64,000 nt of DNA from Yoonia tamlensis (lineage in GTDB: Bacteria; Pseudomonadota; Alphaproteobacteria; Rhodobacterales; Rhodobacteraceae), in contig NZ_FOYP01000001.1 of NCBI RefSeq assembly GCF_900115105.1, positions 1,452,097 to 1,516,096 on the forward strand, written 5' to 3'. Positions within the stretch are counted from its first letter, which is position 1; each line of letters starts with the position of its first letter. The position numbers were made by a program, and so were the translations under genes. The notes under the pieces were generated by a model. The model saw only the letters and a list, made by a program, of their open reading frames with translations, had not been told where the DNA came from and made no database searches. Shown here in pieces: positions 6,382 to 15,825 of this stretch.

Positions 6382-7062
6382 TTACTGAACAAACCAAGGG
6401 CGCAGCGGTGGGAGTTGATCACTCACAACCCATGAGGTCAGATCATTCGCAAACTGGAATGTGGTGCGCAGTTCCAGCAGTGCCGCGCGGAACAGCAACC
6501 AATGGCGACGGCGCGCCGCGACAACAGCCGCACTGCCCTGCACAATCACAGGGCAATAGCGTACCGCGTCGGACACACGCACACCCTTGCGATTGACCCG
6601 CTGCTGCGCAGGCCAGCCTGTCACACCCAGCGCCGCAGCATCGGCGGTCTTGGCTGTCTCCCCGTGACGGTTGATAAACCAATCACGCGGCTTGATGGAT
6701 GTCTCAACCCGCCAATCAGGCATGGTGTTTGCGCGGGCATGTTCAACGATGGTCAATGCCATCTTCTGGCCACCGCAGCCTTCAGGCAAAACCGAAAGCG
6801 CCGAAGCCACGAGATCAGCGTCGGGATGCGGATCAGAGCGGCCGCCACCATCAACACGGCACCCCAGCTTTTCATGCTCGGCAATGATCGCGGTCATGCT
6901 GGTATAGCCAAAACCCTGCAACCAATCACCACCGAGGCCAACATGCTGCAAATCCAGTTGCGCGGCCTCGCGCTGAAATGCCCAGACGATCAGGCCCCAG
7001 ATATCAATGGATTGACGCGCACCGGTCGCCGCAGTCGGGCGCATGCCTTGCACCGCCATCAT
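6382..7062 (-). CDS. Phage protein of unknown function, last gene of the early operon
   Basis: A 226-residue protein I do not recognise. It has a SIDIWGLIVWAFQREAAQLD segment near the N-terminus and is rich in Trp, Arg and His. The ATG at 7062 is chosen because it overlaps the upstream stop as ATGA. It is the last early gene before a dyad-rich control region and the terminase block, the place taken by late regulators (Q-like antiterminators) in lambdoid phages. A late-control role is therefore a positional guess only; no Q-family motif is visible. Confidence 0.7.
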   Translation of the reverse strand: MMAVQGMRPTAATGARQSIDIWGLIVWAFQREAAQLDLQHVGLGGDWLQGFGYTSMTAIIAEHEKLGCRVDGGGRSDPHPDADLVASALSVLPEGCGGQKMALTIVEHARANTMPDWRVETSIKPRDWFINRHGETAKTADAAALGVTGWPAQQRVNRKGVRVSDAVRYCPVIVQGSAAVVAARRRHWLLFRAALLELRTTFQFANDLTSWVVSDQLPPLRPWFVQ

Positions 7063-7646
7063 GCGTCCACCCCACCTGATTGCCCTAGAGCTGCGATGTC
7101 GCGGCATTTGCGCAGCGCAGCAAGGCGACGGGCGCGCCAGCCAGACACATCAGACGAAAGCGCATCGCCGCGCGCCAGCGCCTCATCGCAGCGGGTCAAA
7201 CGGGTCACGCTGTCGCCGGCCGCCTGCTTGATCTGGGTGATCACATAGGCGTTCGGCCAACGGCGCGATTTCTTGAGTTCGGCCAGCAGCTCAGGTGCCC
7301 AACCGCCGACCAACGCATCAGCGCCCAACTGCGCGGCAAACACGGCCCGGATCAATGGCGATGCCTCATCGCTGGGCGGCTGGATCTGGCCCGCCCATTC
7401 CAGGATGCGATTGGCAATTGGAAACCGGTCACGGTCTTTGCCAGCGGGATTGGATGCCGCCTGCTCTTCGAGCGCCATAAGGTTTGGCTCGGTCATGTAG
7501 GCCAGCCGGGCGCAAAGGTCTTTGACCATTTCATCGAATTGAAGCTTGGTCAGGCTTCCCGGCTTTGCCAGACCACGCCGCTGCAACGGTTGGATCAAAA
7601 TCATATCGACGCGCTTCTCGCCATCGGCCTGTTGCGTGCTATCCAT
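7059..7646 (-). CDS. Phage early protein of unknown function
   Basis: A 195-residue, mostly helical protein with no motif I can assign. The ATG at 7646 (MDSTQQADGEKRVDM) is preferred over a GTG at 7688, because it has a strong GAGAAGGGG ribosome-binding site and the GTG would overlap the upstream gene more deeply. It sits right after the replication protein and overlaps the next gene by four bases. A replication partner (helicase loader-like) or regulator would fit the position, but nothing in the sequence proves it. Confidence 0.7.
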   Translation of the reverse strand: MDSTQQADGEKRVDMILIQPLQRRGLAKPGSLTKLQFDEMVKDLCARLAYMTEPNLMALEEQAASNPAGKDRDRFPIANRILEWAGQIQPPSDEASPLIRAVFAAQLGADALVGGWAPELLAELKKSRRWPNAYVITQIKQAAGDSVTRLTRCDEALARGDALSSDVSGWRARRLAALRKCRDIAALGQSGGVDA

Positions 7647-7671: not shown

Positions 7672-8301
7672 CTACGTTTCGGCGACACGCAATGCGTGCG
7701 TGGTCATTTCATCGGTCGAGAGCAATTCCAAAGCTGCGATACAGCGGCGAACCCTGTCGCCAACAGCTGCAGCGTTGATGCGACCACCACCGCGAATGTG
7801 ATCGGCGATTTGCTTGGCTTCGGTGCGCTCATCGGCGGTGAAGAATGGCGCAGCATTTCTCGCGCGCGCTGTTCTTTTCTGGTTCCCTTCAGGTTCGTGT
7901 CCGACCGTCCGGACACGGGATTGGCCATTTTTCGGACACGGGATTGGCTGTTTTTCGGACACGGCTTTGGGCTTTTTCCGTGTCCGGTTTTCGGACACGG
8001 GTTTATCTACATCTTGTGGTTTTTCCTCATCACACCCCAAGACATAAAGCGTCCGTTTTTGGGTCTTCGTGCGGGCGTTTGAACGCTGGACGCGGCGGAT
8101 ATATCCGCCGTCTTCAAGCGTTTTTAGATGCAGGTTCAGAGTTGATCGCGACATCTCACACTCACTTGCAAGCAGCGCCTGCGATGGGTCACACTGCTTG
8201 GTGTGCTTGTTGTGGCAGTCCGCCAAAAAGACCAGCACAAGCTTAACGGCAGGCTTCAGGCCACGTTGACTAAAGGCCCAGCTTGTCGCCTCAATGCTCA
8301 T
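7672..8301 (-). CDS. Phage winged-helix replication initiator-like protein
   Basis: A 209-residue protein with an N-terminal winged-helix DNA-binding domain (about residues 1-90). ATSWAFSQRGLKPAVKLVLV opens it and the recognition part is LLASECEMSRSTLNLHLKTL. This is the layout of lambda O-like and other phage replication initiators. A disordered Lys/Arg-rich linker (about residues 95-140) follows, encoded by an iteron array, then a small helical C-terminal domain. An origin embedded in the initiator gene is the lambda arrangement, which supports the call. The ATG at 8301 is chosen over 8316 because GGGGGA precedes it. It overlaps the upstream gene by 11 bases. Confidence 0.75.
   Translation of the reverse strand: MSIEATSWAFSQRGLKPAVKLVLVFLADCHNKHTKQCDPSQALLASECEMSRSTLNLHLKTLEDGGYIRRVQRSNARTKTQKRTLYVLGCDEEKPQDVDKPVSENRTRKKPKAVSEKQPIPCPKNGQSRVRTVGHEPEGNQKRTARARNAAPFFTADERTEAKQIADHIRGGGRINAAAVGDRVRRCIAALELLSTDEMTTHALRVAET
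7896..7999. repeat. Iteron array, probable phage replication origin
   Basis: The 8-mer CGGACACG or its complement CGTGTCCG occurs six times in 104 bases: 7896 (reverse), 7910, 7933, 7956 (forward), 7979 (reverse) and 7992 (forward). The three forward copies head tandem 23-bp units (7910-7932, 7933-7955, 7956-7978) ending in T-rich tails; the first two units differ at two positions. A unit of 23 is not a multiple of three, so the copies fall in different reading frames of the host gene, which argues for selection on DNA rather than on protein. The array lies in the linker region of the winged-helix replication gene. Confidence 0.75.
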
Positions 8302-8857
8302 GATCAATCCCCCCATCGGATCCTGAAACTACGTCGTCGATTGATTGTGCCCGTGTCCGAATTCCGGACACGGGTTTTGCGAACCGAGCGCCCGCCTCCA
8401 GTTCGGGATATGGTTCATTGGACAGCCCATATGCCTCAAGGCGTTTGACGATGTCCGGGACTGCTCGCAGGCGGTGCCAGCGCTGCTCTATTGCGATGCA
8501 GGGACGGCCCAGCCGATCAGCAATTGCGGCAATGCCATCTCCCGCCGATTTGGCGGTCAACAGCGCGCGATCGTCGCGCGAACACCAACGCGGATGGAAC
8601 ACAGATGCGAGATCCCTGTGTATCGGTCTCCGCTGTACAGGGGGGGGCTTTACGGCCACCAGCGGGGCGACCTCATTGGGTTCGGGTACCGATTGCGCGC
8701 GGCGCAGGCCAACGCTGTTGAGCCGCCCCCGCGCCTGCGCCGAGCAGACCGCCGCAGGCTTCACACCCAAGGCACGTGCCGCCTGCGCCTGCGATAGGTA
8801 GGTGACGCCGCGGATGACGATCGGCTGGCCCTTGCGGTCAGATGCCGGTTGTGTCAT
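8291..8857 (-). CDS. Phage DNA-binding protein with NUMOD1-like repeat and HTH
   Basis: A 188-residue protein. Residues 13-50 (IRGVTYLSQAQAARALGVKP and onward) form a NUMOD1-like helix-turn-helix module, also present three times in the next gene upstream. A second helical segment at about 90-130 (LLTAKSAGDGIAAIADRLGR) resembles a homeodomain or Myb-like element. No nuclease motif is present. Near the C-terminus, residues around KPVSGIRTRA are encoded by an inverted pair of the phage iteron. It overlaps both neighbours. A role in origin binding or early regulation is inferred from content and position. Confidence 0.72.
   Translation of the reverse strand: MTQPASDRKGQPIVIRGVTYLSQAQAARALGVKPAAVCSAQARGRLNSVGLRRAQSVPEPNEVAPLVAVKPPPVQRRPIHRDLASVFHPRWCSRDDRALLTAKSAGDGIAAIADRLGRPCIAIEQRWHRLRAVPDIVKRLEAYGLSNEPYPELEAGARFAKPVSGIRTRAQSIDDVVSGSDGGIDHEH
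8351..8373. repeat. Inverted iteron pair in the neighbouring gene
   Basis: CGTGTCCG (8352-8359) and CGGACACG (8365-8372) form a dyad spaced like the 7979/7992 pair of the main array. It is in frame within a different gene and encodes K-P-V-S-x-x-R-T-R, the same peptide pattern the 7979-7999 pair encodes in the replication gene. Confidence 0.7.
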
Positions 8858-9342
8858 TGCCGCGCCCCCTTGCTGGTGGCCGCATATTGCATCGCAGCCG
8901 CAAAGACGCGTTCAAGCATGGATTGGGAATTGCGCTTAAAGGCCTTCTGAACGTAATCCTTACCAAAACCCAAAGCACGGTCTGCATCGCGCATCGACCG
9001 GAATGAAACCGGACCGATGACCACGGGCTTGGCAATGTGCTGGCCGCGCGCGTTAGGCCGGCCAATGTCGTTAGGGCGACCAGCGGCCAGTCTGCGATAG
9101 ACAACAGAGATGTGAAGCCCGAAGTGCGCCGCCGCCGCTTCAGCACTTTCAAAATCGACACCGCGCACGCACACAGGCATCGGTTCCACACCGCTTTTGC
9201 CAGCACCACACCGGTGCAATGTGCCCGCACGGGCATGGGCACGCACGTTAACGGGATGAACCTTCAATTTAGCGGCAGCATGGTCTGCGTCACGATAAGT
9301 GACACCGCGAATGGTCAAATTAGTATGGCGACGCGCTGTCAT
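8854..9342 (-). CDS. Three-repeat NUMOD1-like DNA-binding protein
   Basis: The 162 residues are almost wholly three tandem modules: residues about 9-46 (LTIRGVTYRDADHAAAKLKV), 57-95 (VCVRGVDFESAEAAAAHFGL) and 104-145 (PVVIGPVSFRSMRDADRALG). Each has a beta-hairpin start, then alanine-rich and recognition helices, as in the NUMOD1 modules that give homing endonucleases their DNA contacts. There is no nuclease domain, so this looks like a pure array DNA-binding protein. Its stop overlaps the start of the one-repeat relative downstream (ATGA). Candidate ligand: the nearby iterons. Confidence 0.7.
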   Translation of the reverse strand: MTARRHTNLTIRGVTYRDADHAAAKLKVHPVNVRAHARAGTLHRCGAGKSGVEPMPVCVRGVDFESAEAAAAHFGLHISVVYRRLAAGRPNDIGRPNARGQHIAKPVVIGPVSFRSMRDADRALGFGKDYVQKAFKRNSQSMLERVFAAAMQYAATSKGARQ

Positions 9343-10416: not shown

Positions 10417-10752
10417 CTACGCCGCCCATTTCAAAAACGTTGCCGCACCAGCGGGATGGGTTTGATAGGCGATGGCGACCTTCGCGCCATTTGGCCCGCC
10501 GATCCCCAGCCACCATTTTTCCGCCGCCTTCTCAGTAACGCCATAGCAATAAGCGACCTCGATCTGGTTGCGGTAATGCGCATGCAAAAACGCGCGCCAC
10601 ATTTCAGGGAACGCTGCGCCAAAGGCATAAGGGTCAGCGGCCTGCGACTTTTGTGCGGATGCATTTCCAGACGACTGTCGTGGGCGCAGCGCGATAACGT
10701 TGTCGCATGGAACAGAAACTTGATTATCAGATATGCGGGCGGCTTGCGTCAT
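10417..10752 (-). CDS. Phage helix-turn-helix protein, second gene of the early operon
   Basis: A 111-residue protein with a compact domain at residues 50-110 (PEMWRAFLHAHYRNQIEVAY then GVTEKAAEKWWLG) that reads as an HTH of the small phage-regulator type. The N-terminal third is low complexity. The start overlaps the stop of the Cro-like gene (ATGA), so the two are co-translated. A CII-like or replication-linked role is possible from position. Function otherwise unknown. Confidence 0.65.
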   Translation of the reverse strand: MTQAARISDNQVSVPCDNVIALRPRQSSGNASAQKSQAADPYAFGAAFPEMWRAFLHAHYRNQIEVAYCYGVTEKAAEKWWLGIGGPNGAKVAIAYQTHPAGAATFLKWAA

Positions 10753-11000
10753 GCGGATTGACCCTCCGTCACTGGATTATCGACCGGCAATGGCTTCGCG
10801 TGCAGACGCACAATCAAGTCCGCGTCGATTGGAAAGCCGCGCGCGACACCGCACTGAATTACTTGTGCATGAAACGCCGCAGGAATTGCGTTACTCAACG
10901 CCCACTTGTGGACACGATCGGCACTTACACCAACCTCATCGGCAAGGGTTCGGCGAAACGGCCACAAATCAATCAGGTCTTTTATCGTTTGAATTTCCAT
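10749..11000 (-). CDS. Cro-like phage regulator
   Basis: An 83-residue HTH protein (TLADEVGVSADRVHKWALSN at residues about 15-34) transcribed away from the repressor gene at 11090, the usual Cro position. The ATG at 11000 is preferred; an upstream in-frame TTG at 11030 would lie inside an operator. A weak -10-like AAATAT (11013-11008) about eight bases before the ATG would make the message nearly leaderless. It is the first gene of the leftward early operon. Confidence 0.72.
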   Translation of the reverse strand: MEIQTIKDLIDLWPFRRTLADEVGVSADRVHKWALSNAIPAAFHAQVIQCGVARGFPIDADLIVRLHAKPLPVDNPVTEGQSA

Positions 11001-11014
11001 AGTCAGGATATTTC

Positions 11015-11070
11015 TGGAAGATTTTTCCAATTGTCAGCACTGGAATTTGTTTCAATAGATATTTTTTCCA
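11015..11070. promoter_or_regulatory. Three-site phage operator between cro-like and repressor genes
   Basis: A perfect dyad TGGAA-N5-TTCCA lies at 11015-11029, a one-mismatch copy at 11041-11055 and a degenerate copy (right half perfect) at 11056-11070, in the 89-bp divergent interval. Three graded sites between divergent regulators match the lambda OR layout. Two more copies at 11510 and 11540 sit on the other side of the repressor gene. Confidence 0.72.
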
Positions 11071-11089
11071 GCATGGATATGTGTGACGT

Positions 11090-11365
11090 ATGAAAATTGA
11101 CCTCGAAGGCGTCGGCATACGACTGGAAGCAATACGCTCCGCACTCCACCTCCCAAAAGGTGAATTCGCCAAATCATTTGGCGTTGATCCCTCAAGCTAT
11201 TCCAAGATCATCAAGGGCGAAAAGCCCTTGCTGGCAGATGCTGCATTTCAAATTTCAGAGCAATGGGGCGTCACAATGGACTACATCTATCGCGGGCGCC
11301 TTCTGGGGCTACCGGAAGAAATTGCAGACGACCTCCGCAAGCGCAGCGCAGCCAACCAGCCATAG
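11090..11365 (+). CDS. Short phage repressor (XRE-type HTH)
   Basis: A 91-residue HTH protein: residues 10-70 form an XRE-like domain (LPKGEFAKSFGVDPSSYSKI then KGEKPLLADAAFQISEQWGV). It lacks the S24/LexA-type C-terminal peptidase of CI repressors, so RecA-driven self-cleavage cannot be its induction route. It is divergent from the Cro-like gene, with TGGAA-N5-TTCCA dyads on both flanks, which are the likely binding sites. The ATG at 11090 has only a weak GGA upstream. Confidence 0.78.
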   Translation: MKIDLEGVGIRLEAIRSALHLPKGEFAKSFGVDPSSYSKIIKGEKPLLADAAFQISEQWGVTMDYIYRGRLLGLPEEIADDLRKRSAANQP

Positions 11366-14493: not shown

Positions 14494-14833
14494 ACAACTC
14501 CTAACTATTGATGACGCCGCCCTTGAATGGGGTATCCCAAAGGCCCCGCTATTGCGTGCCGCCGAAAAACACGGCTATCTGATACGATTCGGGCGATCAT
14601 CACGCATCTACGCCCGCGAAATGCCGGAGCTTATTGAAAAATGCCGATGCCCTCAAAAGGTGCCCGTCTCTTCTTACGAAAACGAAAAGGGCGAAAACCA
14701 ACCTTCGTCATCAAGGATTCTGGCGCCGAAATCAGCACAGGCACGTCAGATCGCGGAGCAGCTGAAGTCCAGCTTGCACAATACATCTCGACCAAAAACC
14801 GCCGCAGTGGTCCAGTTGAAACCCGCGAAATAA
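14486..14833 (+). CDS. Excisionase-like HTH protein
   Basis: 115 residues. Residues 5-50 form a winged-HTH of the excisionase type (LTIDDAALEWGIPKAPLLRA then GRSSRIYAREMPELIEKC). The tail from about residue 52 on overlaps the integrase gene for 193 bases in another frame. The tail (AEQLKSSLHN then PKTAAVVQLKPAK) resembles what I remember from relatives, so the long overlap may be real. It probably directs integrase toward excision. Confidence 0.72.
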   Translation: MTRQLLTIDDAALEWGIPKAPLLRAAEKHGYLIRFGRSSRIYAREMPELIEKCRCPQKVPVSSYENEKGENQPSSSRILAPKSAQARQIAEQLKSSLHNTSRPKTAAVVQLKPAK

Positions 14834-15717
14834 CGATATCGGATATTCTGTCGATTTACGGCAGCGAACACGCACCCACGGTCGCAGACCCCGTACGGAT
14901 CGGCTACGCGATGTCCGCCTTGCTGCCGTTTTGGGGTGATCTTGCAGCCGATGCCGTCAAAGGCGAAACATGCAGGCGGTACGCAAAAATGCGCAACCGC
15001 GCACCCGGTACCGTCCGTCGTGAATTAAACACACTGCAGGCCGCGCTCAATTATTGCCAGCGCGAGGGTTACATCCTCACTGCCCCCAACGTAACGATGC
15101 CGGCCACACCAGAAACAAACCAGCGTGCCCTAACCCGTGATGAAGTCGCAGCATTGATCCGCGCCGCACGCGCCCGCAAACAAGATCACATCGCTCGATT
15201 CATCTTGGTCAGCATCTACACAGGAACGCGCAAAGCAGCCGCACTCAACCGGCGCCTTGCTGGCCCGTCCGTGAATGGTGGTTGGTTCGACCTCGACGCC
15301 GGCCTTCTTTATCGCCGTGGCGAAGGCGAGAGAATCACAAACAAGCGACGCACCCCCGTCCGGCTACCACGCCAGCTCTGGGCGCACGCCAACCGGTGGC
15401 AGCGCTCTGGGAATACATGGGCAGTCGAATGGCGCGGCCAACGCATTGCCGACCTCAAGACCGCGTGGGCCAAGATCGTCAATGATGCGGTCGACGATGA
15501 GGATTCAGTTCTGGATTGGAAGCCCACACCGCACAGCCTCAAGCACACAGCTATCACCTGGGCAATCCAAGGCGGCGCATCAGTCGCAGACGCTGCAGGC
15601 TTTTTCGCAACCAGCATTGAGACAATCGAGCGAACCTATTGGCATCTTTCGCCCCATTTTCAAAGCGGGGCACTTGCCGCAATCGAGGGGAACCGAGGGC
15701 GAAACAGGGGCCAATAA
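14641..15717 (+). CDS. int: Tyrosine integrase of the prophage
   Basis: Site-specific recombinase for insertion into and excision from tRNA-Arg. The 358 residues comprise a short N-terminal arm-binding part, a SAM-like core-binding domain (about 65-150) and a catalytic domain (165-340). Catalytic residues seen are Arg197 in YTGTRKAAAL, Lys235, His298, His302/His335 and Tyr333 in ERTYWHLSP. The box-II Arg of the H-x-x-R motif is Lys301 (HSLKHT). The gene ends 31 bases from the tRNA 3' end, the normal place for int of a tRNA-targeting phage. Confidence 0.93.
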   Translation: MPMPSKGARLFLRKRKGRKPTFVIKDSGAEISTGTSDRGAAEVQLAQYISTKNRRSGPVETREITISDILSIYGSEHAPTVADPVRIGYAMSALLPFWGDLAADAVKGETCRRYAKMRNRAPGTVRRELNTLQAALNYCQREGYILTAPNVTMPATPETNQRALTRDEVAALIRAARARKQDHIARFILVSIYTGTRKAAALNRRLAGPSVNGGWFDLDAGLLYRRGEGERITNKRRTPVRLPRQLWAHANRWQRSGNTWAVEWRGQRIADLKTAWAKIVNDAVDDEDSVLDWKPTPHSLKHTAITWAIQGGASVADAAGFFATSIETIERTYWHLSPHFQSGALAAIEGNRGRNRGQ

Positions 15718-15748
15718 AGTAGAACAAGAACAAAAGTCTTTATTTTAT

Positions 15749-15825
<77 letters not shown>

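Follow-up and report, generated by a model that had tools for sequence, protein, structure and literature searches.

A probable replication origin within the winged-helix initiator gene of a Yoonia tamlensis prophage

Introduction

Repeated DNA within a coding sequence raises the question of whether it is retained as DNA or as peptide, and, if as DNA, which protein reads it and what it does. This question is posed by a stretch of 64,000 nucleotides from Yoonia tamlensis (contig NZ_FOYP01000001.1, positions 1,452,097 to 1,516,096; hereafter the window), in which a gene for a small winged-helix protein contains a compact array of one 8-bp sequence, CGGACACG. Origins inside O genes are textbook knowledge for lambdoid phages, according to the passages cited here (PMC5043065, PMC7466680, PMC6022878). 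In lambda, four palindromic iterons are each bound by a dimer, as stated in the cited part of PMC5043065, and lambda-type origins are described in the cited sections as dimer sites together with an A+T-rich region (PMC5043065, PMC7466680). Here we report a comparative analysis of the array, of the protein that appears to read it and of the DNA on either side.

Results

The gene that contains the array (Table 1) encodes a protein with a Pfam HTH_36 match (E 1.1e-11) and with matches to PHROG 270, 391, 345 and 1032, all "replication initiation" (E 2e-19 to 1e-16); 62 phage records matched it, including 11 Rhodobacter phages. Its AlphaFold model consists of a winged helix-turn-helix domain (residues 1-90, with helices 3-11, 17-28, 41-47 and 52-64 and wing strands 68-75 and 80-88), a disordered, low-confidence linker at about 91-150 and three C-terminal helices (156-201), and by model and coordinates the linker is the part encoded by the array. 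Its PDB relatives by sequence were MarR-like regulators only, a Foldseek search of the PDB with the model returned no match at E 0.001 or better, and the viral Foldseek matches included O proteins, e.g., at rank 7 of the list. PHROG 391, 345 and 678 matched both this protein and lambda O. In PHROG 391, however, lambda O was matched at 133-288 and the window initiator only at 1-145, and by this comparison a lambda O-like C-terminal domain is absent from the latter.

Gene order around the initiator resembles that of lambda: repressor-like genes lie divergently at 10749-11365, then comes the initiator, and the late genes lie farther on. The tRNA-Arg end of the integrase-like gene is likely the prophage attachment site, and the PHROG 9306 protein could be a late regulator. 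The product of the next gene belongs to no Pfam or NCBIfam family, and a PDB fold search with its model gave nothing better than E 1.6; lacking both kinds of match, it was rejected as a helicase loader of known type, and neither such a loader nor a recognisable P gene was found. The two NUMOD-like proteins gave weak I-TevI DNA-binding or NUMOD1 matches, with no nuclease domain seen.

Table 1. Features of the initiator locus, in window coordinates
Feature	Position	Strand	Remark
Winged-helix replication initiator gene	7672..8301	-	209 aa from ATG 8301; ORF open to 8316
First dyad of array	7978..8001	-	half-sites 7992-7999 and 7979-7986
Single half-site, tandem unit 1	7956..7963	-	CGGACACG copy
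Single half-site, tandem unit 2	7933..7940	-	CGGACACG copy
Last dyad	7896..7917	-	tandem unit 3 (7910-7917) and inverted partner 7896-7903
A-rich GAACC-type repeats, candidate DNA-unwinding element	7870..7895	-	directly after array on gene strand; from family consensus, codon bias and A+T
Alternating CGCGCGCGC run	7861..7869	.	adjoins A-rich element
Extra perfect 25-bp dyad, same half-site	8350..8374	.	49 bp upstream of ATG, within end of preceding ORF
Next gene, all-helical 193-aa protein, candidate helicase-loader partner	7062..7640	-	predicted model; relatives beside similar initiators
NUMOD-like proteins	8294-8857, 8857-9342	-	repeated "IRGVTYxxxxxAAxxLxV" modules
PHROG 9306 protein	6382-7107	-	relatives close to initiator in many fetched loci
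Integrase-like gene, ends beside tRNA-Arg gene	14641-15825		tRNA-Arg 15749-15825

The 8-mer CGGACACG occurs eight times in the window against 2.81 expected (at least eight in 1 of 100 shuffles), with all eight copies confined to 7896-8372. Six of them form the array, at 7896(-), 7910(+), 7933(+), 7956(+), 7979(-) and 7992(+), corresponding to nucleotides 303-406 of the gene, and the other two make up the perfect dyad upstream of the gene at 8350-8374. When the window was dinucleotide-shuffled 40 times, the maximum for any 8-mer per 104 bp was three copies (23 shuffles) or two (17), and the six-copy array is far beyond chance. The steps are 23 and 23 bp between head-to-tail units, and 14 and 13 bp within the two closing inverted pairs. 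Read along the minus strand, which carries the gene, the array consists of a forward-reverse dyad, a forward copy, a forward copy and a second forward-reverse dyad, the last three forward copies lying at 23-bp steps. The six sites fall in three reading frames and along the gene are translated as PVSE, RTRK, AVSE, PCPK, RVRT and VGHE. These results bear out the initial annotation, which had described six copies in both orientations within 104 bp, three head-to-tail 23-bp units flanked on both sides by inverted pairs at 13-14 bp, and repeats that yield different peptides in different frames. In a pattern search of the host's own genome that allowed up to two mismatches, full dyads were found only at the initiator locus, two in all.

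Conservation is seen in two close relatives, L003 and L006, whose proteins are 77% and 79% identical to the window initiator and whose genes both retain the array layout. The four forward copies of L003 have all become TGTCCA in place of TGTCCG, in three frames; the two reverse copies differ as well, at the adjacent base, and neither CGGACA nor TGTCCG remains in the gene. The amino-acid changes produced differ from frame to frame. The initial annotation had named homologues with the same linker peptides but without conserved 8-mers as contrary evidence; in L003 the 8-mers did change, but the forward copies did so alike in three frames, which speaks against that refutation.

The wider family comprised 194 distinct homologous genes drawn from 225 loci, and a tandem triple was called strong when at least 8 of 10 columns were identical. 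Strong triples were found in 152 of the 194 genes, the remaining 42 lying under the threshold, some with only two units, and none of 582 codon shuffles reached it. The step was 23 bp in 146 of the 152 triples, 12 in four, 22 in one and 36 in one. Half-sites vary among homologues, with CCGTGTCCGG, CCGTGTCCAG, CCATCTCCGG, CCGTGTCTCA, CCGTCTCCAG, CCGTGTGCAA and others represented. This retention of the 23-bp spacing while the half-site sequence changes favours an iteron array bound by the initiator. The layout is also shared: an inverted partner accompanies tandem unit 1 in 1 of 146 arrays and unit 2 likewise in 1 of 146, as against 91 of 146 for unit 3 (7 or 8 of 8 letters), and a full dyad lies within 130 nt before the tandem units in 121 of 146. 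In the homologous genes, the first tandem unit lies at a median of about 370 nt inside the gene. A separate clade with the recognition motif ..TLF.. is represented by 11 whole-genome relatives (L199, L200, L203, L204, L206-L209, L211, L214 and L034), none of which has a strong triple.

Which protein reads the half-sites was approached through covariation. A further scan yielded 37 genes with steps of 22-24, of which 27 were added to give 173 arrays for base and residue counts. Base 5 was G in 114 of 114 genes with Arg52 and C in 59 of 59 with any other residue there; base 3 was G in 124 of 124 with Gln81 and A in 35 of 35 with Arg81 (14 genes have another residue at 81); and base 9 was C in 17 of 17 with Arg57, G in 70 of 72 with Asp or Glu57 and A in 32 of 34 with Asn57. 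In the model, positions 52-64 form a helix and 80-88 a wing strand. Mutual information, computed over 146 genes (effective number 63), placed R52 at the top for base 5 (0.81, next 0.45) and Q81 for base 3 (0.57, next 0.37), and ranked L57 first for bases 8, 9 and 10.

Co-change was then evaluated on a single short-domain tree with weak branches, from which residues 52, 53, 54, 57 and 81 had been left out; all branches were treated as equal. On this tree, changes in base 3 and residue 81 coincided in 7 of 8 cases (p 2.6e-10; next column 8.3e-5), and changes in base 5 coincided with those in residue 52 in all four cases (p 3.7e-7; next column 7.7e-3). For base 9, the best column was T54 (9 of 20, p 2.0e-6) and residue 57 did not stand out; among disjoint close pairs, residue 57 ranked third for this base. 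The association of base 9 with residue 57 has strong backing from mutual information and the held-out genes but weak backing from the tree and the matched pairs. On well-supported branches, independent switches amounted to two pairs for residue 52 and two for residue 81, too few for a sign test.

New genes provided a further test. Additional scans returned 84 distinct new domains, with a triple at 23 in 64, at 12 in 13 and none in 7. The 64 genes obeyed the pairing at base 5 in 62 of 62 scorable cases, at base 3 in 56 of 56 and at base 9 in 48 of 53; leaving aside six unanchorable genes of the Rhizobium-phage type, the counts were 58 of 58, 56 of 56 and 48 of 50. Agreement was complete in the 26 genes at most 90% identical to any earlier gene (26/26, 25/25 and 21/21 for bases 5, 3 and 9) and in 13 genes whose half-site is unlike that of the nearest earlier gene (13/13, 13/13 and 12/12). 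L547 carries Arg at 81 among Gln81 neighbours, and its base 3 is A, as expected. Because half-site bases follow the DNA-reading residues, in new genes as well, it is well supported at the sequence level that the gene's own product binds the array through its winged helix. In many relatives, repeats and DNA-reading residues change together, and the pairing is largely readable from sequence.

Initiators of the Rhizobium-phage type (L046, L526, L534, L541, L542, L543 and L545) depart from this pattern. Six of these genes have 23-bp triples and L046 has half-sites at 23-bp steps, but the half-sites do not fit the anchor or the code; the array is perhaps turned round.

The DNA beside the array was also found to be constrained. 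Immediately beyond the last dyad, the family consensus of the gene strand is about TAACCcTGTAAGgGAACC..TAAG..AACC. Within this A-rich element, every gene that has the peptide encodes its valine by GTA (107 of 107), a codon used for 232 of 2122 valines in the rest of these genes, and the following arginine is always encoded by AGA or AGG (99 of 99, as against 453 of 4394 in the rest); this codon bias indicates that the element is constrained as DNA rather than as peptide. The two 20-nt bins that cover it have an A+T content of 0.55 and 0.58, the highest of 27 bins (0.25-0.53 in the other 25), and by analogy with lambda we propose it as an unwinding element. Alternating GC runs follow it in 108 of 146 genes, at 10.3 per kb in the 110 nt after the array against 1.1 elsewhere in the genes; peptide selection may be their cause. 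Upstream of the gene, a dyad of the gene's own motif within up to 400 nt was present in only 2 of 173 genes, namely the window gene and L241, and was absent from the aligned stretches of L003 and L006. A family-wide operator was rejected on these counts, and the upstream dyad may be a private operator of the window locus. The perfect inverted pair at 8350-8374 and the A-rich repeated element at about 7870-7895 of the plus strand had both been missed in the initial annotation.

Discussion

Our results strongly favour the view that the array consists of iterons of the winged-helix initiator encoded by the same gene and is most likely the replication origin of the prophage. Origin function is suggested by the O-like protein family, the place of the array within the gene, the A-rich element and the lambda-like gene order. 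The initial annotation had proposed an iteron-type origin inside a phage replication gene; an initiator-bound iteron array is supported, and origin activity is probable by comparison with lambda. Its parallel with the lambda origin in O holds for the location of the sites inside the initiator gene, whereas the layout differs in that only the outer sites are palindromic here.

A four-step mechanism can be envisaged. The N-terminal winged helix would read CCGTGTCCG-type half-sites, a step for which covariation gives good support: residue 52, where the recognition helix starts, would read base 5, residue 57 of this helix together with 53-54 would read bases 9-10, and wing residue 81 would read base 3. 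As the conserved layout suggests, a pair of proteins would then occupy each outer dyad and single subunits the two inner half-sites spaced by 23 bp, giving one oriented nucleoprotein complex. By analogy with lambda, this complex may strain and open the A-rich element of GAACC repeats next to the last dyad, and the C-terminal helices, perhaps with the product of the next gene, may recruit the host helicase. Since the linker peptide can vary freely, the sites are able to evolve although they lie in coding DNA.

Three other explanations were considered. An operator role, in which a winged-helix transcription regulator represses its own operon and the sites have no part in replication, is improbable but the best of the three: the fold is close to that of MarR-type regulators, the window gene has the extra upstream dyad, and the covariation, as sequence evidence, speaks for binding and not for replication. 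Against it, an upstream dyad is found in only 2 of 173 genes, a position about 370 nt inside the gene (median) is an odd place for an operator, the protein families are those of replication initiators, and a DNA-constrained A-rich element adjoins the array. Operator and origin roles may coexist in the window. Even less probable is binding by another protein, such as a host factor or the NUMOD-like proteins just upstream. Two of the latter adjoin the initiator gene, but half-site identity tracks the winged helix's own residues, relatives of the upstream proteins occur in only a few fetched loci while arrays occur in most, and there is no sign that the NUMOD-like proteins bind the sites. Finally, selection on a repetitive disordered peptide, with the DNA repeats as a by-product, has a negligible chance of being correct and was rejected: although the array encodes the low-confidence linker, the 23-bp step runs through three frames and gives different peptides, nearly all strong triples (146/152) keep 23 bp and not 21 or 24, the L003 substitutions have frame-dependent effects on the protein, and half-site bases covary with contact residues.

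The nearest known system is that of lambda and Stx-phage O, which likewise has a winged-helix-type initiator, sites mid-gene between the DNA-binding and C-terminal parts, a last iteron step of 23 bp and an A-rich purine strand after the array. In the lambda O gene, four iterons start 348 nt into O at steps of 20, 24 and 23. All lambda iterons are palindromic, whereas two outer dyads and two single half-sites are found here, and the window initiator differs in its C-terminus and in lacking a recognisable P gene. The Paracoccus plasmids pAES7, pMARC3 and pMOS2 encode HTH_36 Rep proteins with iteron-like repeats, as described in the cited part of PMC3832669, and share with the window initiator the same Pfam domain (compared at the domain level only). 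Their oriV structures are different, with 2 direct repeats and one inverted part-iteron overlapping the rep start codon, and no mid-gene array is described for them in the cited sections (PMC3832669). For an iteron plasmid replicon, the origin would be expected outside the rep coding part, with direct repeats bound by monomers, whereas the window array is intragenic and has a dyad at either end. The O-like initiators of Pectobacterium phage ZF40, Stenotrophomonas phage BUCT708 and their relatives (70 genes) belong to the same domain family and also have repeats where the linker is encoded, but these are of the CTGTGCC or CTATGCC type at mixed steps, with strong triples in 17 of 70 genes, at 21 or 24 bp, and a replicative helicase gene lies next door. 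The cited passages on R. capsulatus phages, alphaproteobacterial phages and the Paracoccus virome name no such origin or iteron (PMC8601537, PMC10783043, PMC6536676), and no description of the array or of a recognition code was found in the open-licence papers searched. As far as that literature shows, the array appears to be a previously undescribed variation on the lambda-O kind of origin. Initiator genes annotated just as "helix-turn-helix protein" in Rhodobacteraceae phages gain a likely function and a likely origin.

A broader reading, to which we give an even chance, combines these observations: a three-position code (residue 52 for base 5, 81 for base 3, and 57 with 53-54 for bases 8-10) would fix origin specificity, prophages would sort into specificity groups predictable from the protein, and the fixed array of dyad, half-site, half-site and dyad would give the initiation complex a built-in direction. 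Each gene carries both the site and its reader, and the family therefore offers a natural experiment on how protein and DNA coevolve, in which specificity switches are accessible via natural pairs. Array typing is also relevant to the coexistence of several related prophages in a cell. Among the eight genomes with at least two typed arrays, half-site types differed in six (G507, G461, G568, G462, G428 and G250) and were of one type in two (G237 and G573), and the mixed types hint at replication incompatibility between co-resident prophages.
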